A stretch of DNA of 64,000 nt from Bryobacterales bacterium (GTDB taxonomy: Bacteria; Acidobacteriota; Terriglobia; Bryobacterales; Bryobacteraceae), in NCBI GenBank assembly GCA_947446025.1, contig CANFEY010000015.1:1-64000 (forward strand), in the 5' to 3' direction. The notes below the pieces were generated by a model. The model saw only the letters and a program-made list of their open reading frames with translations. It was not told the origin of the DNA and did not search any database. Below, one piece after another: positions 35,917 to 54,601 of this stretch (positions are counted from its first letter, which is position 1; each line of letters starts with the position of its first letter). The position numbers and the translations under genes were made by a program.

Positions 35917-37190
35917 TGTACGATCTCGGATACTTTCGGAATCATTTAGACGCGATCACGGCTCGGCTGGCGGATCGACCGTTTTCTGTTGACGTGGACG
36001 CGTTCCGCAAGCTGGATGGGGAGCGGCGCGCGGCTGTTTCCGAAGCTGAGGCGCTGAAGGCGCAGAAGAACGCCGAGTCGGCTGAGATCGGCAAGCTTAA
36101 GCGGGCTGGGCAGGATACTGCCGACAAGCAGCAACGCGTGCGCGAACTGGATGAGTTGATTGCGAAGCTGGATGATCGGGCTTCGGCGCTCGATACCGAG
36201 TTCCGGGATTTGATGTCGGGGATTCCGAACTTGCCGCATGAATCGGTGCCAGTGGGCAAGAGCGCGGCGGACAATCTGGAGGTGCGGCGCTGGGGGGCTC
36301 CGACGGAGTTCAAGTTTGAGCCGAAACCGCATTGGGATTTGGGGCCGGACCTGGGCATTCTGGATTTTGAGCGGGCGGCGAAGATTACCGGTGCTCGGTT
36401 TGTAGTGTACATGGGGCTAGGCGCGAAGCTGGAGCGCGCGCTGATCAACTTCATGTTGGACGTGCATACGAAGGAGCACGGGTATACCGAAGTGCTGCCT
36501 CCGTTCGCGATCAACTCGGCGAGTCTGTATTGCACGGGGAACCTGCCGAAGTTTGAGGCGGATCTATTCAAGCTGCAGGGTACGGACTACTATTTGGCTC
36601 CGACGGCTGAGGTGCCGGTTACGAATCTGTATCGGGATGAAGTGCTGGATCTCGATTCCCTGCCCATCAAATTGTGTGCGTACACACCGTGTTTCCGTAG
36701 TGAAGCCGGGTCCTATGGACGCGACGTCCGCGGGATTATTCGGCAGCATCAGTTTCAGAAGGTCGAGTTGGTGAAGTTCTCGAAGCCGGAAGAGAGCTAC
36801 GCGGAACTGGATAAGCTGACGGCGGATGCGCAGGATATTTTAGAACGGCTCGGGCTACCGTATCGCACGGTGGTCTTATGCACGGGCGATATGGGTGTGA
36901 ACCCTGCGAAGACCTACGACATTGAGGTATGGTTGCCGGGGCAGAACGAGTACAAGGAGATTTCTTCTTGCTCAAACTTTGAAGGCTATCAGGCTCGGCG
37001 GGCGTCGATTCGCGCCAAGTCGGGCAAGAGCAAGGCGGAGCATGTCCACACGTTAAACGGCAGCGGGCTCGCGGTGGGGCGGACTTGGCTGGCGATTGTG
37101 GAGAACTACCAGCAGGCCGATGGGAGCGTGGTGGTCCCCGAGGCGTTGCGGTCGTACATGGGCACGGATATCATCCGCGGCGTGAAATAG
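35916..37190 (+). CDS. serS: Serine--tRNA ligase
   Basis: A 424-residue class II aminoacyl-tRNA synthetase. The N-terminal antiparallel coiled coil (about 25-105) grips the tRNA-Ser variable arm; motif 2 is [14 protein letters not shown] with the following HQFQKVE, and motif 3 is [26 protein letters not shown]-like [10 protein letters not shown] and [14 protein letters not shown] are standard active-site segments. ATG 35916 overlaps the citrate synthase stop (TAATG), implying co-translation with that gene, an uncommon pairing. Confidence 0.97.
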
Positions 37191-37197
37191 TTCAGTA

Positions 37198-37214
37198 GCA
37201 GGACGGGAACCTGC
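37198..37214. repeat. Short stem-loop, REP-like (copy C)
   Basis: GCAGG at 37198-37202 pairs with CCTGC at 37210-37214, followed by GCCAC as in copy A. It sits between the convergent ends of serS and the secretin-like gene, a terminator position. Confidence 0.4.
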
Positions 37215-37218
37215 GCCA

Positions 37219-37869
37219 CTAGATCACTTCGGGCGTCACTATTACCACCAGCTTGGTATTCGTGGTGCCGTTCTTCAGAATCGCGTCTAGGATTTCGTTG
37301 CGGGGGATATGACGCAGCAGCGCGCCGGCGGCCTCATCGAGAAGACCGTCGATCACGATGCTTTGGCCAGGGACCAGGGTCAACTCTACCGCGCTTGTAC
37401 GGGTCCCGAACTCCGGGATCGTGAGGCTGACCGTCGAAGGACCTTGCGAAGTGAGGGTTGAGACTGAGGGCTTCACGGACAGACGGATACCGTCCGCATG
37501 GATCGCGGGTTGCAACGTCAGACGGATGCCCAGGTCGCGATACTGGATCGACACCCCGCCATCGTGCAGCACCGGGATGGGCACTTCGCTCCCCGCCAGC
37601 AGCGTAGCAGATTGCGCGTTGCCGGTGAGCATGGTGGGCTCCGCCAGAATGCGCACGCCGCCGCCGCGGGCTCGCAGGTCTTCAAGGAAGGTCACTAGGT
37701 CCAGGCCTGGACGCAGCATGCGGATTTCTTGGTTCGCCGTGGCGGTGAGGTTCTGCGCCAGCATGGCCTGGGCCGCCGGATCCAGTTGAGCAAAGCGGAC
37801 ACGCAGCAACACCTGCTGCCCCCACAATCCGGAGGCGGCCAACCAACCGAGCAATAGAACCGTGCGCAT
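37219..37869 (-). CDS. Short secretin-domain protein (GspD/CpaC-like)
   Basis: A 216-residue exported protein: signal peptide MRTVLLLGWLAASGLWG, then a secretin-type domain with RILAEPTMLTGNAQSATLLA, GSEVPIP, YRDLGIRLTLQPAIHADG and a final QSIVIDGLL and LVVIVTPEVI. This is the core that forms the outer-membrane ring of type II secretion and pilus secretins, but the N0/N1 domains that dock to the inner-membrane machine are missing. It may be a truncated or regulatory form. A full-length relative is encoded at 54596-56212. ATG 37869 is chosen for the signal peptide; the frame is open much further upstream. Confidence 0.75.
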   Translation of the reverse strand: MRTVLLLGWLAASGLWGQQVLLRVRFAQLDPAAQAMLAQNLTATANQEIRMLRPGLDLVTFLEDLRARGGGVRILAEPTMLTGNAQSATLLAGSEVPIPVLHDGGVSIQYRDLGIRLTLQPAIHADGIRLSVKPSVSTLTSQGPSTVSLTIPEFGTRTSAVELTLVPGQSIVIDGLLDEAAGALLRHIPRNEILDAILKNGTTNTKLVVIVTPEVI

Positions 37870-37914
37870 GAGTTTCTTAAGCAATGCATCGGCGGAATGG
37901 GCCGGGGACCGTAG

Positions 37915-38568
37915 GTGTGGTATCGTGTTCGTTTGGTAGAACCACAGAACTTCCAAGAAATCCTCGACCGCGGCATGATGCCGGGGCGCGACATCCGCAT
38001 TGCGTTCGGCGATGCCAACATCGGCAAGTGCCTGATCGTGGCGCCGCACGGGGGCGGGATCGAACCCGGCACCTCTGAGCTCCTGCGCGCCGTGGCGGAG
38101 CTTGGCAATTGGGCGTGGTATGAGTTCGCGGGCTTCCTGCGCAAGGGAAACGTCGAGGGGCTGCACATCGCCAGCGCGCGCTTTGATGAGCCGACGCTGA
38201 CGAAGCTGCTGCCGAAGACGAATTTCGTGCTGGCGCTGCATGGGTCGCAGGAGATGGGCGATCCGGTGGTCCACGTGGGCGGGTTGTGGGAGGAAGGGCG
38301 CTCGGGGATCACGGCGGCGATCAACGCTGCCCGCTCGGCGCATGGCCTCCAGGCTTCGGAAGCGCCGCCACACTTGAGCGGGACGGATCCGGCCAGCGTC
38401 ACCAATCGCGGCAAACTGGGCCGCGGCATTCAGCTCGAGTTTTCCCGCAGTGCTAGGAACCTGTTGTTCCCGCCGGATTGTTCGCGGGAAGCCCGGGGCC
38501 GACGGAGTCCTGCGCTGGGAGCGCTGGCCAAGGCGATGCACGCCGGGCTGAAGCAACTTGCTGGTTAA
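37915..38568 (+). CDS. Poly-gamma-glutamate hydrolase-like protein (YjqB family)
   Basis: About 217 residues of the PGA-hydrolase/phage-replication-related family (YjqB, zinc carboxypeptidase fold). APHGGGIEPGTSEL contributes the predicted zinc-binding His and Glu, and FVLALHG and GRGIQLEFSRSAR are conserved. The family cleaves gamma-glutamyl polymers in capsules. Start uncertain: GTG 37915 or TTG 37933, neither with a clear ribosome site; the TTG version (LVEPQNFQEIL) is close to the usual N-terminus. Its TAA stop is the first three bases of the palindrome at 38566-38588. Divergent from the short secretin gene. Confidence 0.75.
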   Translation: MWYRVRLVEPQNFQEILDRGMMPGRDIRIAFGDANIGKCLIVAPHGGGIEPGTSELLRAVAELGNWAWYEFAGFLRKGNVEGLHIASARFDEPTLTKLLPKTNFVLALHGSQEMGDPVVHVGGLWEEGRSGITAAINAARSAHGLQASEAPPHLSGTDPASVTNRGKLGRGIQLEFSRSARNLLFPPDCSREARGRRSPALGALAKAMHAGLKQLAG

Positions 38569-38588
38569 ATGGTGTCTGACACCATTTA
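38566..38588. terminator. Palindrome spanning a convergent junction (copy 1)
   Basis: TAAATGGTGTC at 38566-38576, a single T, then the exact complement at 38578-38588. The left TAA is the stop of the hydrolase gene, and the right end read on the minus strand is the TAA that ends the metallo-beta-lactamase pseudogene. A bidirectional terminator or a small mobile repeat is likely. A second copy is at 54573-54601. Confidence 0.75.
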
Positions 38589-39565
38589 GGGCCGGCCGTT
38601 GCCGATGGCGAGCCAGGACTTCGCACGTTCCTGCACCACGGAGAGATAGTTCTGGACCTCCGCCTTGCCCACAACCCACGGATGCGGCTCGCCGGTCTTT
38701 CCGCGCTTTGGTTTGCGCCAACAGGGTGAGCGCGTCATTGTAAGCGGTGTGGTTGACGATGATCACGTCGGCTCCTGAGCCGCTGGTGATATCCATGAAG
38801 CGGCTGGCGTTAGAGATGTAGGACTGCAGTATTTCCTTGGACGTCGCGCCGCTGAGCGCGGTGCCTCCCCACTCCATCGCCATGTGCGGTACGCCGTGAT
38901 CTTTAACCGGGACCAGCACGGAGAGCGTTCCGCCAGTGTGGCCGGGAGTGATGTAGATGGTGACAGTGGTGTCTCCGAGCGTGAGCTTCATGCCGTCGGT
39001 GGCTAAGATGCTTTGCGTGGAGGATCGGCTTCGCGGGCGGCCAGGTCCCAATCGGCGGGTCCCATGATGATGCGCGGTTTGTAGGTATCTTGCAGGAATC
39101 TGACGCTGCTGTCGTGATCGCCGTGGGCGTGGCTGACGACGATGTACTTGATGTTCGCGGCATCGAGGCCGGATTTCTTGAGGCCGTCGACGATGGCGTC
39201 CTGCGCGGCGTAGCCGAAGAGCGTGTCGATGAGGATGATGCCTTCGGAAGTCGTGACCGCCCAGGCGCTGTTGGTCTTGGTGGTGAGCAGGGTCAGGTTG
39301 TCGAAGACTTGGCCGCCCTCGGCGTACCAGGTGTCGCGCGCGGGTGTGGCGGGCGGTCCGCCCTTGCCTTTGGCTGCGCCCTTCGCGGCTCCGGCACCTC
39401 CTGGCGGAGTCGCGGTGGAGACCGCCCCGATGGTGTCTGGGCGAGCCAGGGCCGCAGCACCTCAGTTATTCGAATTCAGCAGCGCAGTGGCGGCTGCCTT
39501 GTGCGCGCTGCCGGTGTCGGCGGTCTGCGCAAAGAGGGTGGCGGAGAGGGAGATGTGGAGGAGGA
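38586..39565 (-). pseudogene. Metallo-beta-lactamase-fold hydrolase, multiply disrupted
   Basis: On the minus strand a secreted metallo-beta-lactamase-fold protein can be followed: leader ending LFAQ, DTWYAEGGQVFDNLTLL, EGIILIDTLFGYAAQDAIVD, zinc site SHAHGDHDSS, then after a frameshift near 39010-39035 TVTIYITPGHTGGTLS, and after another near 38710-38718 KRGKTGEPHPWVVGKAEVQN to TAA 38588-38586. There is also an in-frame TGA at 39464-39462 before the domain. Three lesions make it non-functional. The zinc ligands that remain match class B3-like enzymes, but most such secreted acidobacterial proteins are not proven lactamases. The start is not defined. Confidence 0.8.
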
Positions 39566-39960
39566 TGGAAGGGCGCCTGGCGAATTTGGTCTATCGCAGG
39601 TCGGCGGCAATTACCTGTGGCGTGTTGGGTCAGCCCAATTTGGCAAGAATGTACGGAATCCCCGGAAATCCGGGAGCAATGTAGAATTCATCATCTCTGC
39701 TGGAAGGGTGTTTGAGGTTCCTTGCGCCTCCACGAATACTCTACAAATACCGATATCTGGGAGCCGGGACGAGTCACCAGATGCCAAGTGGCTCAGCAGA
39801 TCGTGAAGACTCCTGCGTCTGACGTAGAGAATCGGGTTCGACACGGAGGCCGTCCAATTCGCGGAGAGCGAACTCTGATCCGCTGCGACGACTAGGGATA
39901 TCGGCTGTATTTGATCCTTCGATTCGATGGCGGTAATCGAGTCATCAGGGGGCACGTCAG
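39566..39960. other. Intergenic region, no gene recognised
   Basis: About 395 bases, lower in GC than average. One minus-strand frame stays open (ending near 39611) but has no start and runs into the tRNA fragment, so I do not call a gene. It may be sequence brought in with the tRNA duplication. Confidence 0.45.
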
Positions 39961-40014
39961 TTCCCCAGCGTGGATTCGAACCACGATTCACGGCGTCAAA
40001 GGCCGTCGTCCTAC
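39961..40014 (-). other. tRNA-Gln 3' fragment (54 nt, attachment-site-like)
   Basis: These 54 bases repeat, with one mismatch, the region of the tRNA-Gln gene at 41120-41173, from the discriminator base through the T arm and anticodon arm into the D arm. The 5' part of the tRNA and the CCA are absent, so it is not a tRNA gene. Same strand as the intact gene. Partial duplications of tRNA 3' ends are the usual scar of integrase-mediated insertion. Confidence 0.85.
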
Positions 40015-40042
40015 ACCGCGCGTGGCGGCATGCGTCCCGCAA

Positions 40043-41074
40043 CTAGGGCTTCGACGGCAGTGCGGCCTGCATTTCGAGGAGCAATTCCTCGGTAGCTTCC
40101 CAGTTGATGCACGCGTCCGTGATAGATACGCCGTGCTTGAGATCGGCGGTGATGGGCTGGTTGCCCTCATGCAGATGGGATTCGACCATCATGCCGATGA
40201 TTGTGGGGCTGTCGCGAAGCTGCTCCACCACATCGCGGAACACGATGGGCTGTCGGCGGTAGTCTTTGTTGGTGTTCCCGTGGCTACAGTCGACCATGAT
40301 GCGCGCGGGAAGTCCGGCTTTGGTCAGCTTCTCGGCCGCCTTGGCGACGCTATCGTGGTCGTAGTTGGGCTTTTCGCCGCCGCGCAGAATGATGTGGCCG
40401 TGGGCATTGCCGGTGGTGGAGACGATGGAGGTTCTGCCGTCCTCATCCATCCCGAGGAAGGTATGGGGGACTTGTGAGGCCTTGATGGCGTTGATGGCCG
40501 CGTCGATGTTGCCATCAGTGGTGTTCTTAAATCCTACCGGCATGGAAAGCCCGGAGGCCATTTCGCGGTGGGTCTGAGATTCGGTGGTGCGCGCGCCGAT
40601 GGCGGCCCAAGCAATGAGGTCGGCGAAGTATTGGATGGTGATGGGGTCCAGGGCTTCGGTGCCCGCCGGCATGCCCATCTGGTCTAGCTGCACCAGCAAC
40701 TTGCGGGCCTGCATGAGCCCCTCTTCCATCTCAAACGTTCCATTATGCCGGGGATCGTTGATGAAGCCCTTCCACCCGACGGTGGTGCGCGGCTTCTCAA
40801 AATAGGCGCGCATGACGATCAGCAGCTTGTCGCACTTGTCCGCGACGGCCTTGAGTCGCGTGGCATACTCGATGGCGGCTTCCGGATCGTGGATCGAGCA
40901 CGGTCCGACGACGATGAGCTGCTTGCGGGATTTGCCCTCCAGGATCTGCTGGATCTCCTGCCTGGCGTTGAGGACGGTCTTCTGGCCTAGGCCGAGAGGC
41001 AGTTTTTTGTTCAGTTCCTTGGGAGAAACGATGGGGTGATAGCCCTTGATGTGTTGGTCGTAGATGCGTTCCAT
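40043..41074 (-). CDS. 3-deoxy-7-phosphoheptulonate (DAHP) synthase, type I
   Basis: A 343-residue AroF/AroG/AroH-type enzyme joining phosphoenolpyruvate and erythrose 4-phosphate, the first step to aromatic amino acids. VVGPCSIHDPEAAIEYATRL, FEKPRTTVGWKGFINDP, GARTTESQTHREMASGLSMP, GFKNTTDGN and MVDCSHGNTNKD are the classical motifs with metal and substrate residues. The N-terminal extension (about 1-45) is that used for feedback inhibition in this type. ATG 41074 is chosen because the family start follows; upstream frame reads into the tRNA region. It is flanked by tRNA-Gln and its 3' fragment. Which isozyme (Phe, Tyr or Trp sensitive) cannot be read. Confidence 0.95.
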   Translation of the reverse strand: MERIYDQHIKGYHPIVSPKELNKKLPLGLGQKTVLNARQEIQQILEGKSRKQLIVVGPCSIHDPEAAIEYATRLKAVADKCDKLLIVMRAYFEKPRTTVGWKGFINDPRHNGTFEMEEGLMQARKLLVQLDQMGMPAGTEALDPITIQYFADLIAWAAIGARTTESQTHREMASGLSMPVGFKNTTDGNIDAAINAIKASQVPHTFLGMDEDGRTSIVSTTGNAHGHIILRGGEKPNYDHDSVAKAAEKLTKAGLPARIMVDCSHGNTNKDYRRQPIVFRDVVEQLRDSPTIIGMMVESHLHEGNQPITADLKHGVSITDACINWEATEELLLEMQAALPSKP

Positions 41075-41116
41075 GCTAGGGGAGTGCCGTTGCCACGCCG
41101 AGGTTTGCACCAGGTG

Positions 41117-41190
41117 TGGTTCCCCAGCGTGGATTCGAACCACGATTCACGGCGTCAAAGGCCGTTGTCCTACCATTGAACGACCGGGGA
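41117..41190 (-). tRNA. tRNA-Gln (UUG)
   Basis: Minus strand: acceptor TCCCCGG pairs with CTGGGGA, anticodon stem ACGGC/GCCGT encloses loop CTTTGAC with anticodon TTG, and the T arm CGTGGTTCGAATCCACG is perfect. Discriminator A and an encoded CCA follow at 41120-41117. The anticodon reads CAA (Gln). 43 bases upstream of the DAHP synthase start and on the same strand. Confidence 0.95.
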
Positions 41191-41238
41191 GTGCGGTGGC
41201 GGGCAGACAAAGCTAGTTTATCACGCCACCGCGTCCTG

Positions 41239-42042
41239 TTAATAGCGCAGCGAGCCCATTTTCTGGCGGACGGTGTAACCGAACTGGATGAAGTAGTCGG
41301 GGCCGATGGGGCCTACGCGGTGTCCCCAGGTGGCGTCCCACTGGGCGTTGGGTCCTGCCATGCGGGTGAGGCCCATGTCGTAGACCCAGTTGGGGCCGGT
41401 GCCGTTGTCGAACGGCGCGAAGGCGAAGGCTTCCCAGAAACCTGCGAAACCGGCGATCAGATCGTGTCCCACCGAAATTGTCACGGCTTTCTGCGTGAAG
41501 CGGGCCGAGCTACCGGTTACGCGCGCCGCGTTGAGGTTCCCGGAGAGGCCGAAACCCAGCGGCACATCCTTAGACCAGGTGAGCTTGAAGCCGGGATCGA
41601 ACTTGCCGCTGGTGAAGGCTTGCGCCCCGGTGGGTATACCGACAGAGGGAATCACGCCCAGGGCGGGCAGCCACTTCGATTCCCGGCGGAACTTGTATTT
41701 GAAGCCGAACTCGATGTCACCCAGTCCGCGCAGGCTTGCGCCCCCGCCGCGTTGGCTGACGAAGCCGTCGCCGGCGACACGCAGTTCCCATTTCTTGGAG
41801 ACGCCGAAGCGAAGCAGCGGCGTGCCCATGGAGAGGGTCTTGGTGCCCGCCGCCCGGTCCATTTCAAAGACCGTGCCCATTTCGTTCTGCATGACGCCCT
41901 TACCGACCACCTCGCTTGACTCGGTGTAGTCGGGCCGGTCTGTAACCAGTTCGCCCAGAGCGCCACCGGGAAGCTCAGCTTGGGCCTGCGCCAAAGAGCC
42001 GAGCAGAGCGGCGAGGGAAAGCATACGGAATTTCTGATGCAT
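41239..42042 (-). CDS. Outer-membrane transporter of the phenol-MetA type
   Basis: A 267-residue protein with a signal peptide (about 1-22, AQAQA) and alternating beta strands to a C-terminal aromatic strand (YFIQFGYTVRQKMGSLRY), as in outer-membrane barrels. LVTDRPDYTESSEVVGKGV is the signature opening of the MetA-pathway-of-phenol-degradation family, a loosely named group of outer-membrane channels. Substrate is unknown; there is no catabolic operon nearby. Monocistronic and divergent from the chemosensory operon with 149 bases between starts. Confidence 0.8.
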   Translation of the reverse strand: MHQKFRMLSLAALLGSLAQAQAELPGGALGELVTDRPDYTESSEVVGKGVMQNEMGTVFEMDRAAGTKTLSMGTPLLRFGVSKKWELRVAGDGFVSQRGGGASLRGLGDIEFGFKYKFRRESKWLPALGVIPSVGIPTGAQAFTSGKFDPGFKLTWSKDVPLGFGLSGNLNAARVTGSSARFTQKAVTISVGHDLIAGFAGFWEAFAFAPFDNGTGPNWVYDMGLTRMAGPNAQWDATWGHRVGPIGPDYFIQFGYTVRQKMGSLRY

Positions 42043-42143
42043 TAGCTTAGATCTCCTGGAACCGTAGTGGTTCAGTAGGACTCATCGATCAGAGTTGTCC
42101 GGGATGAGAGAGGATTGTTCTGAGGTAGCGTTCCCGTCCCAGT

Positions 42144-42151
42144 ACCGATAA
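42144..42151 (+). promoter_or_regulatory. Possible FliA-type -10 element
   Basis: ACCGATAA at 42144-42151 matches seven of eight positions of the sigma-28 -10 consensus, 40 bases before the first gene of the chemosensory operon. The matching TAAA at the -35 position is not present, so this is weak. Confidence 0.25.
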
Positions 42152-42191
42152 GACCCTTGTCTAGCGCTGGGCGCGACGAGGGAAATCACCG

Positions 42192-43613
42192 ATGTCCATG
42201 ATTCGCAATGCATCGATCCGCACACGGATCGTGTTGTTTGGGGCCGCTACGGTCACCTTGACTGCCGCCTTAGGTTTGTTCTCGTACTTTACGATGAGCG
42301 GGCTCAACGAGGTTTCGCGCCAGATGGTGGTCAGCGGGCATGCGATCCGGAATCACATGGACGCCGACATGATGCACGACGCGGTACGGGCGGATGTGCT
42401 GAGTGTGTTGGCGGCTGGCACGGATACGGAACGGACTGCCGTGCGTCAGGATCTGGACGAACATCTAAAGTTGTTCCGTGAGGCGATGGCGGAGAATGTG
42501 AAATTGGATCTGCCGCCGGCGATCCGGGAGGCTCTGGACGCCATCGGCCCGGAACTCAACCGGTATGCCGACGCGGCCGGATCGATCTTTGAGACGGCGG
42601 ACCGCAACCACGCCGCCGCGGAGGAGGAATACCCGGCATTCCTGGCCGCCTTCGAGGCGCTAGAAGGGAAAAACTCCGGTGCGACGGATCTGATTCAACG
42701 CGCCGTGGAGGAGAGCGAAGCCGGACAGCAGGCAGCCTTTGAACGCGGGACCTGGACCTTGCTGCTGGGCGTACTGCTGGGGGTGGGATTCACGGCAGCG
42801 GCCAGCTGGCTTACTTCCCGCAGCGTTTCAACGGTGCTGCGGCGTCTGGATCACGAACTTTCGGCGACTGCGGAGGGACTGACTGCGGCCTCCACGCAGG
42901 TTGCCTCCGCCAGCGAGGCCATGGCGCAGGGGGCCTCGTTCCAAGCCCAGTCGGTGTCGAGCGCGGCGGCTTCGAGTGCCGATGCCAGCCAAACAGCGCG
43001 CAACAACGCAGCTTCCTGCCAACGTTCCGCCGGACTGGTAGAGGCGTTGACAACCAAAGCCAGTCAGTCGCAACGTGCGGTGGAAGAACTGAACTCCGCC
43101 ATGGGGGCCATTGCGCAGTCGAGCGGCAAGGTGGCCAAAATCGTCAAACAGATTGAAGAAATCGCGTTCCAGACCAACCTGTTGGCGCTCAACGCCTCGG
43201 TGGAAGCGGCGAGGGCGGGGGCTGCCGGAACCGGCTTCGCGGTGGTGGCCGATGAGGTGCGCAATCTGGCGCAACGTTCCACCGACGCGGCCCGGGAAAC
43301 GGCGGAATTGATCGAAGAGTCGTCGACCTTGTCGGTCGAGGGCAGTACGCGGGCACAACAGGTCTCGCTGGTCATTCACGACCTGCTCGCCGACTTTGCG
43401 GGCGTGCGCTCGGTGATTGACGAGATCAACCATGCTTCCCGGACTCAGGCGCAGGGCATCGAGCAGTTTTCTGCCTCGGTGCAGAAGATTCAGGATGTAA
43501 CGCAAAGGAACGCCGCCAGCGCCGAGGAGAACGCGGCGGTATCGCGAGAGCTCGAAGGACAAGCCAAATCGCTCGGCTTGGTGGCGGACCAGCTGCGCGT
43601 GTTGGTGGGGTAA
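42192..43613 (+). CDS. Methyl-accepting chemotaxis protein (first of two)
   Basis: A 473-residue membrane chemoreceptor. A helix at about 14-33 and another at about 187-207 bracket a 150-residue helical periplasmic domain (four-helix-bundle type). No clear HAMP domain follows. The signalling hairpin tip carries EEIAFQTNLLALNASVEAAR and [15 protein letters not shown], the invariant CheA/CheW contact region. It lacks a C-terminal CheR tether. First gene of the operon; the CheW gene follows after ten bases. Confidence 0.93.
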   Translation: MSMIRNASIRTRIVLFGAATVTLTAALGLFSYFTMSGLNEVSRQMVVSGHAIRNHMDADMMHDAVRADVLSVLAAGTDTERTAVRQDLDEHLKLFREAMAENVKLDLPPAIREALDAIGPELNRYADAAGSIFETADRNHAAAEEEYPAFLAAFEALEGKNSGATDLIQRAVEESEAGQQAAFERGTWTLLLGVLLGVGFTAAASWLTSRSVSTVLRRLDHELSATAEGLTAASTQVASASEAMAQGASFQAQSVSSAAASSADASQTARNNAASCQRSAGLVEALTTKASQSQRAVEELNSAMGAIAQSSGKVAKIVKQIEEIAFQTNLLALNASVEAARAGAAGTGFAVVADEVRNLAQRSTDAARETAELIEESSTLSVEGSTRAQQVSLVIHDLLADFAGVRSVIDEINHASRTQAQGIEQFSASVQKIQDVTQRNAASAEENAAVSRELEGQAKSLGLVADQLRVLVG

Positions 43614-43623
43614 GGAGATTCAT

Positions 43624-44157
43624 ATGGCAACAGCACTGTACGAGAGGCAAGAGAACGTGGTGGTGGATAACCGGGCGGGCAAGTATCTGACGTTTTGCCT
43701 GGGCAAGGAAGAGTTCGCTGTACGCGTGCTGCACGTGCGCGAGATTATCGGCATCCAGGACATTACCACGGTACCGCAGACCCCGGCCTGTATTAAGGGA
43801 GTGATCAACCTGCGCGGAAAAGTGATCCCGGTTGTGGATCTGCGGCTGAAGTTCGGCATGCCCGAACAGGCCCACACCGAGCGTACCTGCATCATCGTCA
43901 TTCAAGTGGAAGGAGCGGCGGGGGCGATGAACACGGGAATCATCGTGGATGAGGTGTCCGAGGTGTTGAACCTTTCGGGCAGTGAAATCGAACCCACTCC
44001 CGATTTCGGCGATGGCGCGGACACGCCGTATCTATTGGGCCTGGCGAAGGTAAAAGACAAAGTCAAGATCCTGCTGGACATCGGGCAGGTGTTGAAAGAT
44101 CAAGAGCTGAGCGGCATGCCCGCGCTGCTCGAAGGAAACGGGGCCTCCTCACTATGA
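43624..44157 (+). CDS. cheW: Chemotaxis coupling protein CheW
   Basis: A 177-residue CheW-domain protein linking receptors to CheA. Conserved segments are [40 protein letters not shown] and DLRLKFGM, then [14 protein letters not shown]. About 20 extra residues precede the domain and the C-terminus is slightly extended. GGAG lies six bases before the ATG. The stop overlaps the next receptor gene (ATGA). Confidence 0.96.
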
Positions 44158-45764
44158 TGACGACGATGAAGGCGACAATGACCATTGGAAAGCGCGTGGC
44201 GCTGCTGGCCGGAGTATTGATGACGCTGGCGGTGATCATGGGTGGGCTGACCACCCTCCAATTGCTTCGCGTGGACGCAGGGATTCGCAGCGTGACCGCG
44301 GACGCGATGCCGGGCCTGGCGTTCATCGCCGATGTGGACAACAACACCCGCTGGCATCAGGCTTTGAGCTGGCAACATATCGCCTCACCGGCTTCCAAGG
44401 ACAGAGACCAACTGGACAGCAGTCTGGCCCAGGTCAAGGTCAAGATCGGCAAGGGCCTCGACGACTACGAGGGCACCATCACACAGGCGGACGACCGGGC
44501 CAACTTCCAGCGCCTCAAAAGCTCGTTCGAGGCCTACTTCGCGGCTTGGGAGAAGCAGGTCCATCCGCTGAGCGCGCGCGGGGCGTCGAGCGAGGCGGCG
44601 CGCCGCTATCAAAGCTCGGTCGTGCCCGTGTCGGAACCCTTGATGGACGCTCTCGGTGTGATGCAGCAATGGAACAGCGACTGGGGCAGCACGGCGGCAG
44701 GGGTGGCGACGCAGACTTCCGTTTCGGCCAAGTGGTGGACCGGAGGCATGCTGGCTGCGGTGTTGGCGGTGGGGTTCGGGTTTACAGCCTACCTGCTGGG
44801 GGGGCTGAACCGTGCCATGGGCCAGATTACTCTGCAGATTGCCGATAGCGCCGAACAAGTGGCAACGGCGGCGAGCGAGGTGGCGGCCACCAGCCAATCC
44901 TTGGCCCAGGGGGCCAGCGAACAGGCGGCGTCGCTCGAGGAAACCTCGGCGTCGAGCGAGGAGATCAATTCGATGGCGCGCAAGAATGCCGAGAATTCCC
45001 GCGCCGCGATGGGCCTGGTCAGCGGCAATCAGCAGACGTTTGCCGAGACCAACAAGAAGCTGGATCAGATGGTGGTGGCCATGGACGAGATCAACACGTC
45101 TTCGGGAAAAATCTCGAAGATCATCAAAGTCATCGATGAGATCGCTTTCCAGACGAACATTCTGGCCTTGAACGCGGCGGTGGAGGCGGCCCGGGCCGGG
45201 GAGGCGGGCATGGGCTTCGCGGTGGTGGCCGATGAGGTGCGCAACCTGGCGCAACGCTGCGCGCAGGCGGCGCGCGACACCTCGGCGCTGATCGCTGAAT
45301 CGATCAGCAAGTCGAATGACGGCAAGACCAAGGTGGATCAAGTGGCCGGCGCCGTGCGGACAATCACTGAGGAGTCGGCCAAGGTCAAGGTGCTGGTGGA
45401 CGAGGTGAGCGTGGGCAGCGAAGAGCAGACGCGCGGCATCGAGCAGGTGTCCAAGGCCATCACGCAGATGGAGCAGGTAACGCAGCGTTCGGCGGCCAGC
45501 GCCGAGGAGGGAGCAGCGGCTGCCGAGGAGCTAAACGCACAGTCTGCCACCATGCGGGAACTGGTGGAGCGCCTGGCCGAGTTGGCGGGCACCGAGGTGC
45601 GCCCGAGTGCAAGCGGTCCAGGACGAACTGGCGGGCCTCGGGCGGCAGCCCCCGCCCGCCAGTCCAGCAACGCGGGAGCCGCTCGCATAGCATGGCAGCA
45701 GCACGCCGGCACGCCTACGGCGTCTTCCGAGATACCGATGGACGAGTTTGAGGAAATCCGTTAA
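44154..45764 (+). CDS. Methyl-accepting chemotaxis protein (second)
   Basis: A 536-residue receptor with the same plan as the first: helix at about 13-33, periplasmic four-helix-type sensor with HQALSWQH, second helix about 196-217, then the cytoplasmic coil with [20 protein letters not shown] and [16 protein letters not shown] 50-residue proline/serine/alanine-rich tail ends DEFEEIR, unlike the CheR-binding pentapeptide. Glutamine/glutamate-rich [18 protein letters not shown] near 265 probably contains methylation sites. Its start overlaps cheW and cheA follows nine bases later. Confidence 0.95.
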
Positions 45765-45773
45765 GGAAGCGCC

Positions 45774-47771
45774 ATGCCCAGCCTCAGTCAAGACCAGCCG
45801 ACGTCGGCCCAGTTGCGCGCGCAGGTAGACCGAATGGCGGCCTGCCTGATGGTGGAAGGCCCGGTAGAGGGCGAATGGCTCGGCATCCTGCAGGAGATCT
45901 GCGAGCAGACGCGCGAATCGGCCACCGATGCAGCGGCGCGGGCGCTGGAGCTGAAGCTCAGACTACAGGCCATCGAGGCCCCGGAGGTGCGGGAAAACGT
46001 GCTCACCGCGGGCATCGAACAACTACGGCGGGCGATAGACGCCGAGGAGATGGCGTCGCCCGGCAGGGCGGTAGGGGGTGCGGGGGACCTGCCTCTGGCC
46101 TCGGATCCCGAGCTGATGCAGGACTTCGTCATGGAGGCCCGGGAGCATCTGGACCGGGCGGACGTGGAATTGCTGACGCTCGAAAAGGAGCCGGACAACA
46201 AAGAGGCCATCAATTCAGTTTTCCGGGGGTTCCACACCATCAAGGGACTGGCCGGTTTTCTCGAGTTGGACGAGATCCGGGCGGTGGCGCATGAGAGCGA
46301 AAGTCTGCTGGACCGGGTCCGGCAGAACAAGCTGCGGTTTTCGCCGGGCATCGCCGATGTGGTGTTGAGCGCGGCGGATTTTCTGCGCACCTGGTTGCTG
46401 CGCGTGGAGGCTTCGCTGCGGGGCGAAGCTCCGGGCACGCCTCCGGACAGTCTGCCGCTGGTGGCCAGCATTAAGGCGGCAGCCAGGAACGAGGCTGTTC
46501 CCGAGGCTCCTGCAACGGCTGCGGCACCGGTCGCAATGGAGGTCCCGGATAAGGTCGAGGAAACCAAGGCCGATCCAAAACAGGCGGCAGCCATCGAAGC
46601 GCGCTCCGTGCGCGTCGACACCGAGAAGCTGGACTACCTGGCGGACATGGTGGGCGAGCTACTGATTGCCGAATCGATGGTGCGGCATTATCCCGAGATC
46701 GCGGGGCTGCAGAATCCGGCGCTAGTGCGGGATCTCTCGCAACTCGGACGCATCACAGCGGAGTTGCAGCGCACGGCGATGTCGATGCGCATGATGCCGA
46801 TTCACGGCATGTTTCAGAAAATGTCGCGGCTCGTCCGGGACCTTTCGCGCAAAAGCTCGAAGCAAGTGGAGATGGTGGCGATCGGCGGCGACACCGAGCT
46901 CGACCGCAACATTGTCGAGCAGTTGGCCGATCCGTTGATGCACATGATCCGGAATTCTGTGGATCACGGGATTGAATCGATCGGCGACCGGGCCAAGACC
47001 GCGAAGGGTCCGGTGGGCAAGGTGACACTCTCGGCGGGCCACCAAGCGGGTTGGATCGTGATCACGATTGCCGATGACGGCAAGGGGTTGGATAAGGCCA
47101 AGATTCTGGCGAAGGCGCGGCAGCAGGGCGTGGTGGATGACAACGCCGTGTTGAGCGACAGTGACACCTTCAATTTTATCTTTCATCCGGGACTTTCGAC
47201 AGCCGCCAAAGTCACCGATATTTCGGGACGCGGCGTAGGTATGGACGTGGTACGCAAGCAGATTCAGAAGCTGCGGGGGCGCATCGACATCCACTCGGTT
47301 CCCGGGGAGGGGACCACGTTTCATCTGCGGCTGCCGCTCACCCTGGCGATCATCGACGGACTGGTGGTGGGGGTGGGCAAGGAACGTTTCATTATCCCGC
47401 TGTTTTCGGTGCGGGAGATGCTGCGGCCGACCGCGGAAATGGTGTTCCAGGTGGACCGGCACGAGGTGGCGATGGTGCGCGGAAACCTGCTGCCGATCGT
47501 GCGCTTGTCGCAGCGGTTGGGGATTGAGGCGCGATCCGAACGCCCGGAGGAGAGTTTGCTGATCGTTGCCGAGGCACGCGGCGCTACCTTCTGCGTGATG
47601 GTGGACGAGTTGGTGGGCAAACAAGAGGTCGTCATCAAAGGCCTGGGTGAGCTACTGAAAAACACCCCGGGCATTGCGGGCGGGGCGATTTTGGGGAACG
47701 GGCAGGTTGGACTGATCCTGGACTTGGACGCGATTCACGCTCCCATGGAGGCGCGCGGACAGGATGCCTAA
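45774..47771 (+). CDS. cheA: Chemotaxis histidine kinase CheA
   Basis: A 665-residue kinase. The P1 phosphotransfer domain has His154 in FRGFHTIKGLAGF; the dimerisation domain starts near 280 (RVDTEKLDYLADMVGELLIA), the ATPase domain holds HMIRNSVDHGIES, DDGKGLD and GRGVGMDVV, and a CheW-like domain (about 525-660) ends the protein. The P2 CheY-docking domain seems to be only a short linker. About 110 residues before P1 are helical and unusual. It phosphorylates the CheY-like protein and CheB of the same operon. The end overlaps cheR by eight bases. Confidence 0.96.
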   Translation: MPSLSQDQPTSAQLRAQVDRMAACLMVEGPVEGEWLGILQEICEQTRESATDAAARALELKLRLQAIEAPEVRENVLTAGIEQLRRAIDAEEMASPGRAVGGAGDLPLASDPELMQDFVMEAREHLDRADVELLTLEKEPDNKEAINSVFRGFHTIKGLAGFLELDEIRAVAHESESLLDRVRQNKLRFSPGIADVVLSAADFLRTWLLRVEASLRGEAPGTPPDSLPLVASIKAAARNEAVPEAPATAAAPVAMEVPDKVEETKADPKQAAAIEARSVRVDTEKLDYLADMVGELLIAESMVRHYPEIAGLQNPALVRDLSQLGRITAELQRTAMSMRMMPIHGMFQKMSRLVRDLSRKSSKQVEMVAIGGDTELDRNIVEQLADPLMHMIRNSVDHGIESIGDRAKTAKGPVGKVTLSAGHQAGWIVITIADDGKGLDKAKILAKARQQGVVDDNAVLSDSDTFNFIFHPGLSTAAKVTDISGRGVGMDVVRKQIQKLRGRIDIHSVPGEGTTFHLRLPLTLAIIDGLVVGVGKERFIIPLFSVREMLRPTAEMVFQVDRHEVAMVRGNLLPIVRLSQRLGIEARSERPEESLLIVAEARGATFCVMVDELVGKQEVVIKGLGELLKNTPGIAGGAILGNGQVGLILDLDAIHAPMEARGQDA

Positions 47772-48606
47772 CGCTCGATCACTGCGGGAGTCGGCGGACA
47801 AAGGCGTGCAAACGATGGCTCGCCTGGCCTATGACCAGTTTGGGCTCGATCTGGGCGAGGGCAAGGAAGGGCTGATTGAGTCGCGGCTGGGAAAAAAATG
47901 GAAGCAGCGCGGCCTTGCTTCGCTCAGCGAGTATTGCGCGTTCGTCGAGAGCGACCAGACCGGGCAGGCGTTGACCGAACTCATCGACGCGCTGACCACC
48001 AATCACACCAGCTTTTTCCGCGAGAGCAAGCACTTCGACTTCCTGAAGGCCACGGTCTTTCCGCTGTGGCGGGGCAGGCGGGAGATTCCGATTTGGAGCG
48101 CGGCATGTTCGAGCGGGGAGGAGCCCTACTCGTTGGCGATCACGCTGCTGGAGGAACTCGGGGCAGACGCCGCGGGGGCTTCGATTCTAGCCACCGATAT
48201 ATCCACCCGCGTGCTGGCTGCGGCGGGCAAGGGACTGTATGCCAGCGAAAGCTTTCCGCGGCCCATGCCGGCGTGGCTGGGCAAGTATCTGTTGCGCGGC
48301 AAAGGCAGCTACGAGGGTTGGATCCAGATCAAGCCCGAGGTCCGGCGTCTGGTCCGCTTCGGGCAGGTGAACCTGATCCAACCTCTGCCGAAGATGCAGC
48401 TCTTCGCGGCGATCTTTTGCCGCAACGTGATGATTTACTTTTACAGGCCAACGCAGGAGCAGGTGGTGAACCGGCTGGGAGCGTGTCTCGAACCGGGGGG
48501 CTACTTATTTGTGGGCCATTCAGAAAGTCTTTCCGGCATCGAACACGGATTGGAATACATCTGCCCTGCGACGTACCGGAAGCCCGGCGGAAGGAGATCC
48601 AGATGA
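47764..48606 (+). CDS. cheR: Chemoreceptor methyltransferase CheR
   Basis: A 280-residue SAM-dependent glutamate methyltransferase acting on the receptors. The N-terminal helical domain is followed by TNHTSFFRESKHFDFL, motif I in WSAACSSGEEPYSLAI, LATDISTRVL, and FCRNVMIYF, all standard. The C-terminus is GGYLFVGHSESLSGIEHGLE. The stop overlaps the cheD start (ATGA). Confidence 0.96.
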   Translation: MPNARSLRESADKGVQTMARLAYDQFGLDLGEGKEGLIESRLGKKWKQRGLASLSEYCAFVESDQTGQALTELIDALTTNHTSFFRESKHFDFLKATVFPLWRGRREIPIWSAACSSGEEPYSLAITLLEELGADAAGASILATDISTRVLAAAGKGLYASESFPRPMPAWLGKYLLRGKGSYEGWIQIKPEVRRLVRFGQVNLIQPLPKMQLFAAIFCRNVMIYFYRPTQEQVVNRLGACLEPGGYLFVGHSESLSGIEHGLEYICPATYRKPGGRRSR

Positions 48607-49127
48607 GCTTGGTGGTGGTGGGGATTGGAGACTGCCAGGTGAGCAATGACCCGCGCTCGACACTAGTGACCTACGCGCTGGGGTCGTGCATTGCGCTGAT
48701 TGCGCATGATCCGGTGAGCAAGATCGGCGGGCTGCTGCACTACATGCTGCCGGAGTCTTCGCTCAACATGGAGCGGGCGCGAACGCATCCAGCGGTGTTT
48801 GGGGACACGGGGATACCGTTGTTGCTCGAGGCCGTGCTTCGAAAGGGAGCGAGCCGGCTCCACCTGACGCTGCGGGCGGCGGGCGGAGCGCAGGTGATGG
48901 ATCAGCAGGGGGTCTTCAACATCGGCAAGCGCAATCAGCTGGTCTTGAAGAAAGTTTTGTGGAAGCGCGGACTGATGTTCCATGCCGAAGAAACCGGCGG
49001 CATGCAGCCACGGACGGTGCGGATGGAGGTGGGCAGTGGGAGGACATTTCTGCGCACAGGCGGGGATGGCGAGCGTGAGTGGCCCTTTGAACAGCGGTCC
49101 GCGGCGGACAGGGGAGGCTTAAGATGA
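48603..49127 (+). CDS. cheD: Chemoreceptor glutamine deamidase CheD
   Basis: A 174-residue deamidase that converts receptor glutamines to glutamates and may work with a CheC/CheX protein. The catalytic Cys29 in YALGSCIALIAHD and His46 in GGLLHYMLP are present. The C-terminal about 30 residues are a charged extension. ATG 48603 has a strong AAGGAG site and overlaps the cheR stop; the frame is open far upstream inside cheR but that part is a shadow. The stop overlaps the next gene by four bases. Confidence 0.93.
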   Translation: MSLVVVGIGDCQVSNDPRSTLVTYALGSCIALIAHDPVSKIGGLLHYMLPESSLNMERARTHPAVFGDTGIPLLLEAVLRKGASRLHLTLRAAGGAQVMDQQGVFNIGKRNQLVLKKVLWKRGLMFHAEETGGMQPRTVRMEVGSGRTFLRTGGDGEREWPFEQRSAADRGGLR

Positions 49128-49507
49128 CGAACATCCTGATTGTGGACGATTCACCGGTCATGCGCACCTTCATCAAGCGTGTGCTTAGCGTTTCCGGCAT
49201 AGATGCGGGCACTCCCTTTGAGGCGGGCCACGGCAGAGAGGCTCTGGAGGTGTTGCGGGCGTATCCGGTGGATCTAGTTCTCTCCGATATCAACATGCCG
49301 GAGATGAACGGTGAGGAGTTGATGCGGGCGATGCAGCAGGACGAGGCGCTGCGGAAAATACCGGTGGTGGTGATTTCGACGGATGCGCGCTTGGACCGGG
49401 TGGATCAGATGATGGGGATGGGAGCGCGGGGATATATCACCAAGCCGTTCAACCCGGAACGGCTGCGCACGGAACTCGATCGGGTACTGGGGGTGGCGCA
49501 TGCCTGA
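49124..49507 (+). CDS. CheY-like single-domain response regulator
   Basis: A 127-residue receiver domain: acidic Asp8/Asp9 in LIVDDSPVMR, phosphorylated Asp55 in LVLSDINMPEM, Ser85/Thr86 in VVISTDARLD, and Lys107 in YITKPF. With no output domain it is a CheY-type protein that should receive phosphate from CheA; its target could be a pilus or flagellar motor or a further partner. It overlaps both neighbouring genes. Confidence 0.93.
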   Translation: MTNILIVDDSPVMRTFIKRVLSVSGIDAGTPFEAGHGREALEVLRAYPVDLVLSDINMPEMNGEELMRAMQQDEALRKIPVVVISTDARLDRVDQMMGMGARGYITKPFNPERLRTELDRVLGVAHA

Positions 49508-49943
49508 ACAGGACTTGCACGCATCGATCAATGACGCCGTGGAGCAGGTACTCGAGACGATGTGTTTTTCCGCAGTGCTGGGGCCATGCGAGACGGCGCA
49601 GGCGCAGCCGTTTCTGGACCGCTCGGCGGTGGTGGATTACAGTGGGGCAAGTGTGGGGTCCGTGCTGATCGGCTGTGATGAAGCGGGGGCGCGGGGGCTG
49701 GCTGCGAATTTTCTGGGTTCGGAAGATGCCAGCGAAGAGCAGGTTTCGGGATTTTTGGCGGAGCTAGCGAATATGCTGTGCGGCGCTGTGGTGAGCACCC
49801 TCAATGGCGGAGGCAACTACAGTTTGGGCACGCCGCGCGTGGTGCCGCCGGCGGCGTTGACCGAGACGGGTGGAGTCCGCTGCGACTTTGAGATTGATGG
49901 CGGAATCCTGTCGGTGCTCGCCTTGCGGCGGGAAGCGGCATGA
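49500..49943 (+). CDS. cheX: CheX-like chemotaxis phosphatase
   Basis: A 147-residue protein with the CheC/CheX fold pattern and one ExxN active-site motif, Glu88-Asn91 in FLAELANMLCG. A single motif and length point to CheX rather than CheC. It should dephosphorylate the CheY-like regulator encoded just upstream, its start overlapping that gene by eight bases, and could also bind CheD. Identification is by motif and context. Confidence 0.8.
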   Translation: MPEQDLHASINDAVEQVLETMCFSAVLGPCETAQAQPFLDRSAVVDYSGASVGSVLIGCDEAGARGLAANFLGSEDASEEQVSGFLAELANMLCGAVVSTLNGGGNYSLGTPRVVPPAALTETGGVRCDFEIDGGILSVLALRREAA

Positions 49944-51001
49944 ACGCGCCTTCCCTGAACCCACCCTCGAAGATACGGGTGCTGGTGGTCGACGATTCGG
50001 CCATCGTCCGCAAGATCCTCACCGATGCCTTGTCGACCGAGCCGGACATCGAAGTTGTGGGGGCGGCACCGGACCCGTTTGTGGCGCGCGACAAGATCCT
50101 GGCGTTGCGGCCGGATGTGTTGACGCTGGATATCGAGATGCCGCGCATGGACGGGGTTTCGTTTCTGCGCAAGCTGATGCGTTATCACCCCATTCCGACG
50201 ATCATCATCAGTTCGCTGACGCAGGCGTCCTCGCAGGCTGCGGTGGAAGCCCTGCAGGCCGGAGCGGTGGAAGTCCTGGCGAAACCGGATGGGCCCTATT
50301 CGGTGGGGGAGTTGCGGCAAGTCTTGGCAAGCAAGATACGGGCGGCTGCGGCGTCGCGGCCGCGGCGTCCGTCAGTGGAAGAAGCTCCGGCAGCGCCACC
50401 GGTGCAGCCCCAGTTGCGCGCGCCTTCGGCCTCGGCGGTCACGATGATTGCGATTGGAGCGTCCACGGGCGGCACCGAGGCGATTCTGGAAGTCCTCACC
50501 CACCTGCCGGGCAACGCGCCGCCGATTGTGATTGTGCAGCATATTCCAGCGGTGTTCTCCAAGGCCTTCGCCGACCGGTTGAATGGACTGTGCGCGATGG
50601 AAGTTAAAGAAGCCTGCCAGGGCGATGAGCTGCAGCCCGGCCGTGCCCTGATTGCTCCGGGCGGATTCCACATGTTGGTGAAGCGGCATCCGGGCGGGCA
50701 CCACGTGGAGCTGACGGCGACGCTCCCTCCGGTTTGCTACCAGAGACCGGCGGTGGATGTGCTGTTCCAGTCCGTGGCGGAAATCGCGGGGCCCTCCACG
50801 GTGGCGGCGATCCTCACGGGCATGGGCTCGGATGGTGCTCAGGGACTGGCGGCGCTGAAGAGTGCGGGAGCCAAGACCATAGCCCAGGATGAGGCCTCCT
50901 GTGTTGTCTTCGGGATGCCGAAGGAAGCCATTCGTTTGGGGGGCGTCGATTCGATCCTGCCGCTGGATCGAGTAGCAGCGGGAATTCTGCGCTGGTGCTG
51001 A
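49940..51001 (+). CDS. cheB: Chemoreceptor methylesterase CheB
   Basis: A 353-residue two-domain protein. The receiver domain has Asp64 in LTLDIEMPRMDG; the esterase domain holds the catalytic triad Ser175 (GASTGG), His201 (QHIP) and Asp298 (GMGSDGA). It demethylates and deamidates receptors, opposing CheR. It is the last gene of the operon, overlapping cheX by four bases and converging on the threonine dehydratase gene with a one-base gap. Confidence 0.97.
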   Translation: MNAPSLNPPSKIRVLVVDDSAIVRKILTDALSTEPDIEVVGAAPDPFVARDKILALRPDVLTLDIEMPRMDGVSFLRKLMRYHPIPTIIISSLTQASSQAAVEALQAGAVEVLAKPDGPYSVGELRQVLASKIRAAAASRPRRPSVEEAPAAPPVQPQLRAPSASAVTMIAIGASTGGTEAILEVLTHLPGNAPPIVIVQHIPAVFSKAFADRLNGLCAMEVKEACQGDELQPGRALIAPGGFHMLVKRHPGGHHVELTATLPPVCYQRPAVDVLFQSVAEIAGPSTVAAILTGMGSDGAQGLAALKSAGAKTIAQDEASCVVFGMPKEAIRLGGVDSILPLDRVAAGILRWC

Positions 51002-51002
51002 T

Positions 51003-52211
51003 CTACAACACTCGCTCGAAGGTGTAGCCGGCGCGTTGCAGATCGGCCATCAATTCTTCCGCGTGGGCTGCTCCGCGCGTTTCCATCGTCACGTCGATTT
51101 TGGCTTCGCCCAGGTGGACGCCGAAATAGGTCCGGTCATGGATCACCTGGACGATGTTCGCGCGGCCTTGCGCGATGACCGCAGTCAAGCTCTGCAAGCC
51201 GCCGGGATGGTCGGAGAGCGTGACGCGCAAGCGCACCAAGCGCCCATCCTTCACTAGGCCGCGTTCGATGATGTGGGCCAGCAGGGTGACGTCGATATTG
51301 CCTCCGGTGATGATGACAGCGGTGCGTTTGCCGCGCAGGGTGGTGCGGTGCTGCAACAACGCAGCGATCCCGATGGCTCCCGCGCCTTCGGCCAGCGTCT
51401 TTTGCTTCTCGAGCAAACGAAGGATCGCCATGGCGGTCTCTTCGTCGTCCGCGGTCACCATTTCGTCCACGTACTTTTCGGCCAACGCCAGCGTCAGGTC
51501 GCCGACCTTGCGCACCGCCACTCCGTCAGCAACGGTCGGACTGGCAGGGATCTCGACGGGCTGATGCGCGGCGAGCGCGGCAGCCATGGACGGCAGCGCC
51601 GCGGGTTCCACACCGATGATGCGGACGCCGGGACGGGACTCCTTGATCGCGCAGGCGATTCCCGAAATCAAGCCGCCACCTCCGACCGGGACAACAACGG
51701 CCTCCAGGTCTGGAATCTGATCGAGCAGTTCGAGGCCCACAGTCCCCTGCCCCGCGATCACCGCCGGGTCGTTGAAGGCGTGAAGGAAGGTGGCTCCATC
51801 GGCTTCGGACCTACGGCGGGCTTCGGTAAGCGCTTCGTCGAAATTCTCGCCGTGCAGGACAACCTCAGCGCCCCAGCCTTGCGTGGAGGAGACTTTCACC
51901 AAAGGCGTGTAGAGAGGCATGACGATGGTCGCGCGGACGCCCAATCGGCCCGCGTGGTAGGCCACACCCTGCGCGTGATTTCCGGCCGAGGCAGCGATGA
52001 CACCACTGGCGCGTTGCTGCGGGCTCATGCACAACATGCCGTTCAGCGCACCGCGCTCCTTGTAGGATCCAGTGACGTGCAAGTTCTCCAGCTTGAGCAG
52101 CACGGTGTTGCCGGTTTCGCGCGAAAGAATCTCGGAGTAGGCAGCTGGAGTGATGCGAATTCCGTCGCGGATGCGTGCGCGCGCGGCTTCGATGTCAGCA
52201 AGGGTTACCAT
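51003..52211 (-). CDS. ilvA: Threonine dehydratase (threonine ammonia-lyase) with ACT domain
   Basis: A 402-residue PLP enzyme converting threonine to 2-oxobutyrate and ammonia, supplying isoleucine. The PLP lysine is Lys51 in [25 protein letters not shown] and the glycine loop [12 protein letters not shown] hold the cofactor phosphate. A C-terminal ACT domain (about 325-402) suggests allosteric control. Length fits the short (one ACT) biosynthetic or catabolic form; gene symbol is therefore tentative. ATG 52211 is chosen for the conserved start [11 protein letters not shown]. Divergent from the hydrolase gene with ten bases between starts. Confidence 0.92.
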
Positions 52212-52221
52212 TGATTCCAGT

Positions 52222-54589: not shown

Positions 54590-54601
54590 CACCATTTAAA
54601 A
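54573..54601. terminator. Palindrome spanning a convergent junction (copy 2)
   Basis: TTTTAAATGGTGTC at 54573-54586, one T, then the exact complement at 54588-54601: 14-pair arms, the inner 11 identical to the copy at 38566-38588. It supplies the TGA of the glycosyltransferase gene (54587-54589) and, on the other strand, the TAA of the secretin gene (54598-54596). The A/T ends would suit a bidirectional terminator. Confidence 0.8.

Follow-up and report, generated by a model that had tools for sequence, protein, structure and literature searches.

How does one short palindrome come to supply the stop codons of two genes that converge on it, and what is its role there? The question arises in a 64,000-nucleotide stretch of a Bryobacterales genome (the window), where the 23-mer TAAATGGTGTC-T-GACACCATTTA is present in exact form at 38566-38588 (copy 1) and at 54576-54598 (copy 2), against 0.00 occurrences expected from 100 shuffles. 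A/T ends extend the second copy to a 29-bp palindrome at 54573-54601. Both copies had been pointed out in a preliminary description of the window, and they are real, as are the four stop codons that it assigned to them.

The left outer triplet of copy 1 is the TAA (38566-38568) of a plus-strand poly-gamma-glutamate hydrolase gene (37915-38568; PF05908, E = 9e-37), and its right outer triplet is the TAA (38586-38588) of a minus-strand metallo-hydrolase-like gene, the 3' part of which spans 38586-38730 (upper limit approximate). The last codons of this frame-shifted gene align with those of relatives that stop at the equal residue. Its earlier description as a pseudogene is fair, because the earlier part of the gene sits in another frame and the frame that holds the stop has no Pfam match. 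Within copy 1, a constant 21-mer with the ends AAAT and ATTT occupies 38567-38587, and taking it out leaves TTAG, a 4-bp overlap of the two stops. Copy 2 contains the TGA (54587-54589) of a plus-strand glycosyltransferase gene (53510-54589; PF13692, 24.2 bits, below the 27-bit cut-off), and its right outer triplet is the TAA (54596-54598) of a minus-strand secretin gene (54596-56134; PF00263, E = 5e-29). The glycosyltransferase ends in LNGV here and in LNRS in the nearest relative found (G014), where the secretin ortholog stops at the equal residue, as TGA. A 610-aa minus-strand open reading frame (37219-39051) also runs through copy 1 opposite the hydrolase gene and joins a metallo-hydrolase-like start to a secretin-like end; a classification of copy 1 as lying inside a gene was based on this chimeric frame and was set aside by hand. 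An Rfam scan of 36000-56500 returned nothing but a tRNA gene (41120-41190, minus strand; RF00005).

The palindrome is a dispersed element, as had been supposed. Searching the 4.43-Mb genome of the window (G000) for ATGGTGTC(T/A)GACACCAT returned 36 copies, and the pattern ATGGTGTCNGACACCAT likewise has 36 matches, with T or A as the centre base every time; a control pattern read backwards has none. The 36-copy pattern has 0 matches in 60 relatives, including 0 exact copies in G014, and it is present in one of 395 further genomes of the phylum, as a single copy. We refer to these untagged copies, which consist of a core with the arms AAAT and ATTT, as class A. Their unit is the 21-mer AAATGGTGTCTGACACCATTT, which is exact in 34 of the 36, has one base altered in L059 and one in L064, and has no match in viral contigs.

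The 13-bp core, GGTGTCTGACACC, has 61 copies in G000 and 20 in G014; seven of the other 59 relatives carry one copy each, and none carries more. Reading the flanks divides the 61 cores into the 36 class A copies, 15 tagged copies, and 10 other untagged copies. In the tagged form, the core and a 9-nt 5' bulge (GGGAGTTRT) are enclosed by an outer stem (e.g., AGATC/GATCT), which is complementary at 11-15 of 15 positions per pair in G000, with A-T / T-A changes in one pair, and is weaker in G014 (4-11 of 14). Coding sequence contains some of the other untagged copies, of which L080, at least, is probably a chance match. Class A is linked to the tagged form by a repeat in G014, AAATT-GGGATTTAA-core-ATTTA, which has both class-A-like outer arms and the bulge. 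One tagged copy in coding sequence (L075, 2501) has a degenerate counterpart at the matching place in G014, so some copies predate the split of the two genomes. G000 and G014 also have, at an equal coding place (L081, 2501, and L106, 2501), a core whose 5' arm is AATTC in both; this is either conserved or due to chance.

In G000, a Y1 (HUH) transposase gene lies between two tagged copies of opposite orientation (L016, 1399-2166), which form 32-bp inverted repeats (1399-1430 and 2135-2166) that are 100% complementary, and G014 has a like unit (L044) with inverted repeats that are 94% complementary. The two transposases share 63% identity and match Y1_Tnp (PF01797; E = 8e-15 in G000 and 2e-15 in G014), with the HUH and tyrosine motifs appearing as NHAH and YVEQNP. 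Their best NCBIfam model is NF047646, REP_Tyr_transpos (REP-associated tyrosine transposase), at 66.2 and 73.2 bits, below the cut-off of 80. A second Y1_Tnp match in G000 (C43, L017) was rejected as a partner, with 21.1 bits, below the cut-off, and no core at its locus. The G000 unit starts at the stop of an aminotransferase-like gene; in G014, this gene and its neighbour have no transposase unit between them and are separated instead by an ordinary long-stem terminator with T5. The unit is thus located differently in the two species, and its absence from this place in G014 is possibly due to loss. Six other relatives were scanned for transposase genes: in four of them (L046, L048, L050, and L051) the genes have inverted flanking repeats of 20-32 nt that are at least 90% complementary, at L049 the flanks are 86% complementary, and L047 has no inverted repeats. 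The transposases at L048 (1901-1958), L050 (1334-2180), and L051 (1388-2236) have hairpin repeats of their own, such as AAAAGTGCCTGTCACTTTTTC and TGGGGACAGTCCCCGAACTC. Expansion of the core follows the type of transposase, with 61 and 20 copies in the two genomes whose units share the core versus at most one in each of the 59 others.

For the placement of class A, genes were called with an ad hoc caller, and the hydrolase gene and the opposite fragment at copy 1 were added by hand; stop codons were counted for class A only, the 10 other untagged copies having been set aside beforehand. Gene 3' ends lie on both sides of 19 class A copies, on one side of 14, and on neither side of 3, and in 33 of the 36 a gene 3' end is at most 45 bp away. 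The copies are not spread without regard to gene orientation but prefer convergent ends: 19/36, whereas in the G014 stretches 253/1408 junctions between genes are convergent (p = 2.5e-6). Genome-wide, the earlier observation that two of two copies sit on convergent junctions turns into a strong preference. Among the 51 gene 3' ends near class A, 41 stop at the outermost TAA, 4 at the inner TGA, 1 further in, and 5 before the palindrome, and the use of the outermost TAA compares with one third expected (p = 7e-12). That the element brings stop codons is correct insofar as these 41 ends use a TAA of the palindrome, but where orthologs were present in the G014 stretches, they often stop at the equal residue already: many of these proteins end there without a palindrome, by TAG, TGA, or TAA, and others end a few residues apart.

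The two outer TAAs serve as the stops of both genes in 13 convergent pairs, and the base that precedes these 26 stops is C in 13, T in 11, and G in 2, so that C or T precedes 24 of 26 stops compared with 24 of 52 other TAA stops (p = 4e-5). Without the 21-mer, 11 of the 13 pairs (exceptions: L015 and L056) read YTAR, two stops overlapping by 4 bp, and 6 of 10 one-sided stops (not L001, L011, L059, and L063) are restored. A gap of -4 is the most frequent convergent gap in G014 (36/188). Over all class A copies, YT is found 5' of the 21-mer in 25 of 36 and, on the other strand (3' flank), in 32 of 36. At L089 (1773), a class-A-like TAAAT..AATTA covers one gene's stop together with the region where a murB-like gene (named by eye) probably starts.

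We compared these sites with about 1.7 million bases, nearly all from G014 and none from a closely related strain. Four of the 36 class A copies have both flanks matched in the G014 stretches (copy 2, L011, L061, and L068/2501), and the 21-mer is absent from all four places. Copy 2 represents a net gain of 20 nt relative to G014 and also to G007, with the 23-mer in the position of their 3-nt stop. The sequence here is longer than that of G014 by about 34 nt at L061 and by about 24 nt at L068, and it is about 2 nt shorter at L011, where G014 has a different hairpin-like sequence. At L006, the G014 ortholog has TAATTGGTGTCAGACACCAATT at the corresponding stop, its arm altered yet self-complementary and its centre base opposite, which reflects a copy common to both genomes that has co-varied, or else a separate event in each genome at this stop.

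Two copies lie in conserved coding sequence. An exact 21-mer is found inside an sdhA/frdA gene (L009, 1503; NCBIfam PRK07803), where 13 relatives align ungapped and KFALAPF of G014 reads KWCLTPF here, and another copy lies inside a squalene/phytoene synthase gene (L083, 2501; PF00494), around which eight relatives are ungapped. The corresponding G014 sequences match the palindrome at 12 of 21 (L009) and 11 of 21 (L083) positions, and random G014 21-mers have 12 matches in 0.09% and 11 in 0.4% of cases. Judged from these alignments, replacement would fit the two copies better than insertion; selection on the enzymes, or insertion plus deletion, is also possible.

We think it probable that the palindrome belongs to a REP-like family, linked to a RAYT, that is placed at stop codons with unusual precision and provides a hairpin at mRNA 3' ends. 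This reading starts from what the sequences show: the family itself, the core that it shares with the transposase ends, its positions at stop codons, the Y/R flanks, and the absence of copies at syntenic places in the relative. The palindrome would be the untagged, perfectly self-complementary branch of a REP-like family of a RAYT/TIRYT-type HUH transposase, the tagged branch being the one of which two inverted copies bound the transposase gene. Copies would be placed as the 21-mer, with a preference for YT 5' on either strand, and stop codons (T^AR) would be the most frequent target. Where two genes converge, the 21-mer would split the 4-bp overlap of their stops (YT^AR), after which both proteins would keep their ends, both genes would stop at TAA, and a hairpin would lie between them. 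We infer that the copies arise through single-stranded DNA by the action of the transposase or of a related enzyme; the E. coli enzyme TnpAREP is described as cutting at CT (PMC8266576). A hairpin that acts on RNA at gene 3' ends would presumably favour retention between overlapping convergent genes. One argument against a RAYT origin is that the 5' tag on which RAYT substrates usually depend is missing from class A; nor did we find a transposase with class A ends. Against the splitting of YT^AR, 2 of the 13 convergent pairs and 4 of the 10 one-sided stops are not restored. An insertion of 21 nt also does not correspond to the gain of 20 nt at copy 2 or to the length differences at L061, L068, and L011, and the two coding copies show no gain in length whatsoever.

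As RNA, the 23-mer folds into a 10-bp stem with a 3-nt loop at a modest -9.7 kcal/mol (z = -4.3 versus shuffles), and as DNA it has the same fold at -7.7. Most likely the palindrome acts on RNA at gene ends, through 3'-end protection, ribosome stalling, or assisted termination, and a classical intrinsic terminator is just one possibility, as the U-tract is absent. The preliminary description had taken it for a bidirectional intrinsic terminator, in which the hairpin ends transcription of both convergent genes and selection for that sets the places of the copies. The convergent setting of 19 copies points in this direction, as do the symmetry of the hairpin, which is A-rich at its 5' end and U-rich at its 3' end whichever strand is read, its advantage over shuffles, and the T run of at least four that follows 6 of the 15 tagged copies. 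However, TTTT is found close downstream of only 1 of the 36 class A copies on each strand, the intrinsic-terminator pattern of a G+C-rich stem with a U-tract behind it is absent from class A, and a terminator scan of 36000-55600 called neither window copy. The stop codon, moreover, is part of the stem and would be covered there by the last ribosome, for 14 copies just one side has a gene end, and the long stem with T5 in G014 means that the lineage has classical terminators; the claim is not supported in this form, and we consider such a terminator unlikely. Alternatively, the family would be kept as a post-transcriptional element, its stop-codon hairpin either stalling ribosomes at termination or protecting mRNA 3' ends. 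This is plausible, although we stop short of calling it probable: the distance from stop to stem is zero at 41 of the 51 gene ends, but a ribosome easily melts a 10-bp, A/T-ended stem. For E. coli, REPs at most 15 nt from a stop codon are reported to stall ribosomes (PMC12306157, citing Liang et al. 2015).

Other readings concern how the copies arrived. Single-stranded palindrome DNA might anneal to partly similar chromosomal sequence and overwrite it in place, in a gene-conversion-like manner, without insertion. The ungapped copies in sdhA/frdA and in the squalene/phytoene synthase gene would follow naturally, together with the resemblance of G014 to the palindrome at both sites, and the copy at the murB-like start (L089) likewise leaves net length unchanged relative to G014. 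Copying in place is nevertheless doubtful as a general account, since copy 2, L061, and L068 gained about 20-34 nt relative to G014, and selection on two conserved enzymes, or insertion followed by deletion, could explain the resemblance. We are similarly hesitant about a composite in which a RAYT-linked palindrome spreads by overwriting, its single-stranded hairpin annealing to partly matching sequence and replacing it, also within conserved enzyme genes such as the two above, while being targeted to or selected at stops, where it would separate overlapping convergent genes. A near-exact dispersed palindrome that is present in coding sequence too could also be a site for a chromosome-organising or regulatory protein, of the kind represented by Noc, SlmA, and matS, or a DNA-uptake sequence. 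We regard this as very unlikely, given that the nearest relative has no exact class A copy, that the arms differ among genomes with self-complementarity kept, that copies at gene ends bring length changes, and that the core forms transposase ends; DNA-uptake sequences, in addition, occur in hundreds or thousands of copies. The TA flanks on both sides of many copies could suggest a miniature element derived from an IS630/mariner-type DDE transposon, which duplicates a TA target. But the flanks vary independently, with a non-T 5' of AAAT or a non-A 3' of ATTT on one side in 11 of 36 copies, no direct duplication fits all copies, and the core matches the ends of an HUH transposase, which makes this origin highly improbable.

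The RAYT-linked family that we favour is an unusually clean record: its copies are near-identical and exact at their edges, YT^AR is a defined target, and for each of the two coding cases there are many ungapped relatives. It makes testable whether such palindromes insert or overwrite, and whether a mobile hairpin is kept for separating overlapping convergent genes. Overwriting, if true, would be direct sequence evidence for conversion-like spread, an idea that Higgins et al. (1988) reportedly posed as a question in their title. The way in which REP-type repeats move is still described as unresolved (PMC8266576). No paper on stop codons as insertion targets, or on insertion at convergent genes that overlap, came up in a literature search, and in those parts of the REP, RAYT, and TIRYT literature that the search covered we did not meet the exact split of YT^AR, an untagged branch on stops, or length-neutral coding copies. 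The family is not a new kind of element, because Di Nocera et al. (PMC3733652), in the sections relevant here, report REPs that adjoin both 3' ends of convergent ORFs, termini that give TAG stops, intragenic REPs, and, in Acidobacteria, transposases bounded by TIRs together with repeat families made of such TIRs.

Like REPs with their RAYTs (GTAG families, groups 2 and 3, as described in PMC2817692 and PMC8266576), the family consists of many dispersed, mostly extragenic palindromes in the 20-40-bp range that form hairpins, lie mostly at gene 3' ends, and are enriched between convergent genes. Its hairpin also flanks a transposase gene in inverted orientation, in the tagged form, which has nothing but the 13-bp core in common with class A. 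It differs from REPs in the foot of the hairpin, where class A has AAAT and no 5' GTAG, GT[AG]G, or GGAG, and where the tagged form has GGGAGTTRT, bulging from within a stem. The copies are also few for a REP family (61 cores) and single rather than paired, and they supply both stops together, as TAA. REPINs, as presented in PMC3116915, are similarly non-autonomous palindromic units tied to a RAYT, but the unit here is one 21-mer and does not need inverted doublets. Rickettsial palindromic elements and intragenic REPs, in the account of PMC3733652, are likewise palindromes in coding genes that keep the frame; those add residues, whereas the copies at L009 and L083 replace residues at constant length. 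REPtrons are said in a general statement not to transpose as a unit (PMC6006769), and the unit described here is at different places in G000 and G014, with loss in G014 possible. In gene layout, the unit resembles TIRYTs, or TnpAY1 subclass 2.1, which the sources characterise as Y1 genes with a C-terminal extension and inverted repeats of about 30 bp that contain a hairpin (PMC3733652; PMC6006769). TIRYTs are described in Acidobacteria, and some of their TIRs, with those of Koribacter ORF1552 as an example, make up families of repeats (Di Nocera 2013, PMC3733652); the portion of PMC6006769 that deals with subclass 2.1 states that no REP-like sequences were found. Long TIRs surround the transposase gene here too, although they read ..CGGGAGTTGT.. 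in place of the TIRYT motif GGGGWSAS; what sets this family apart from TIRYTs is the untagged, perfectly palindromic branch that has spread onto stop codons.
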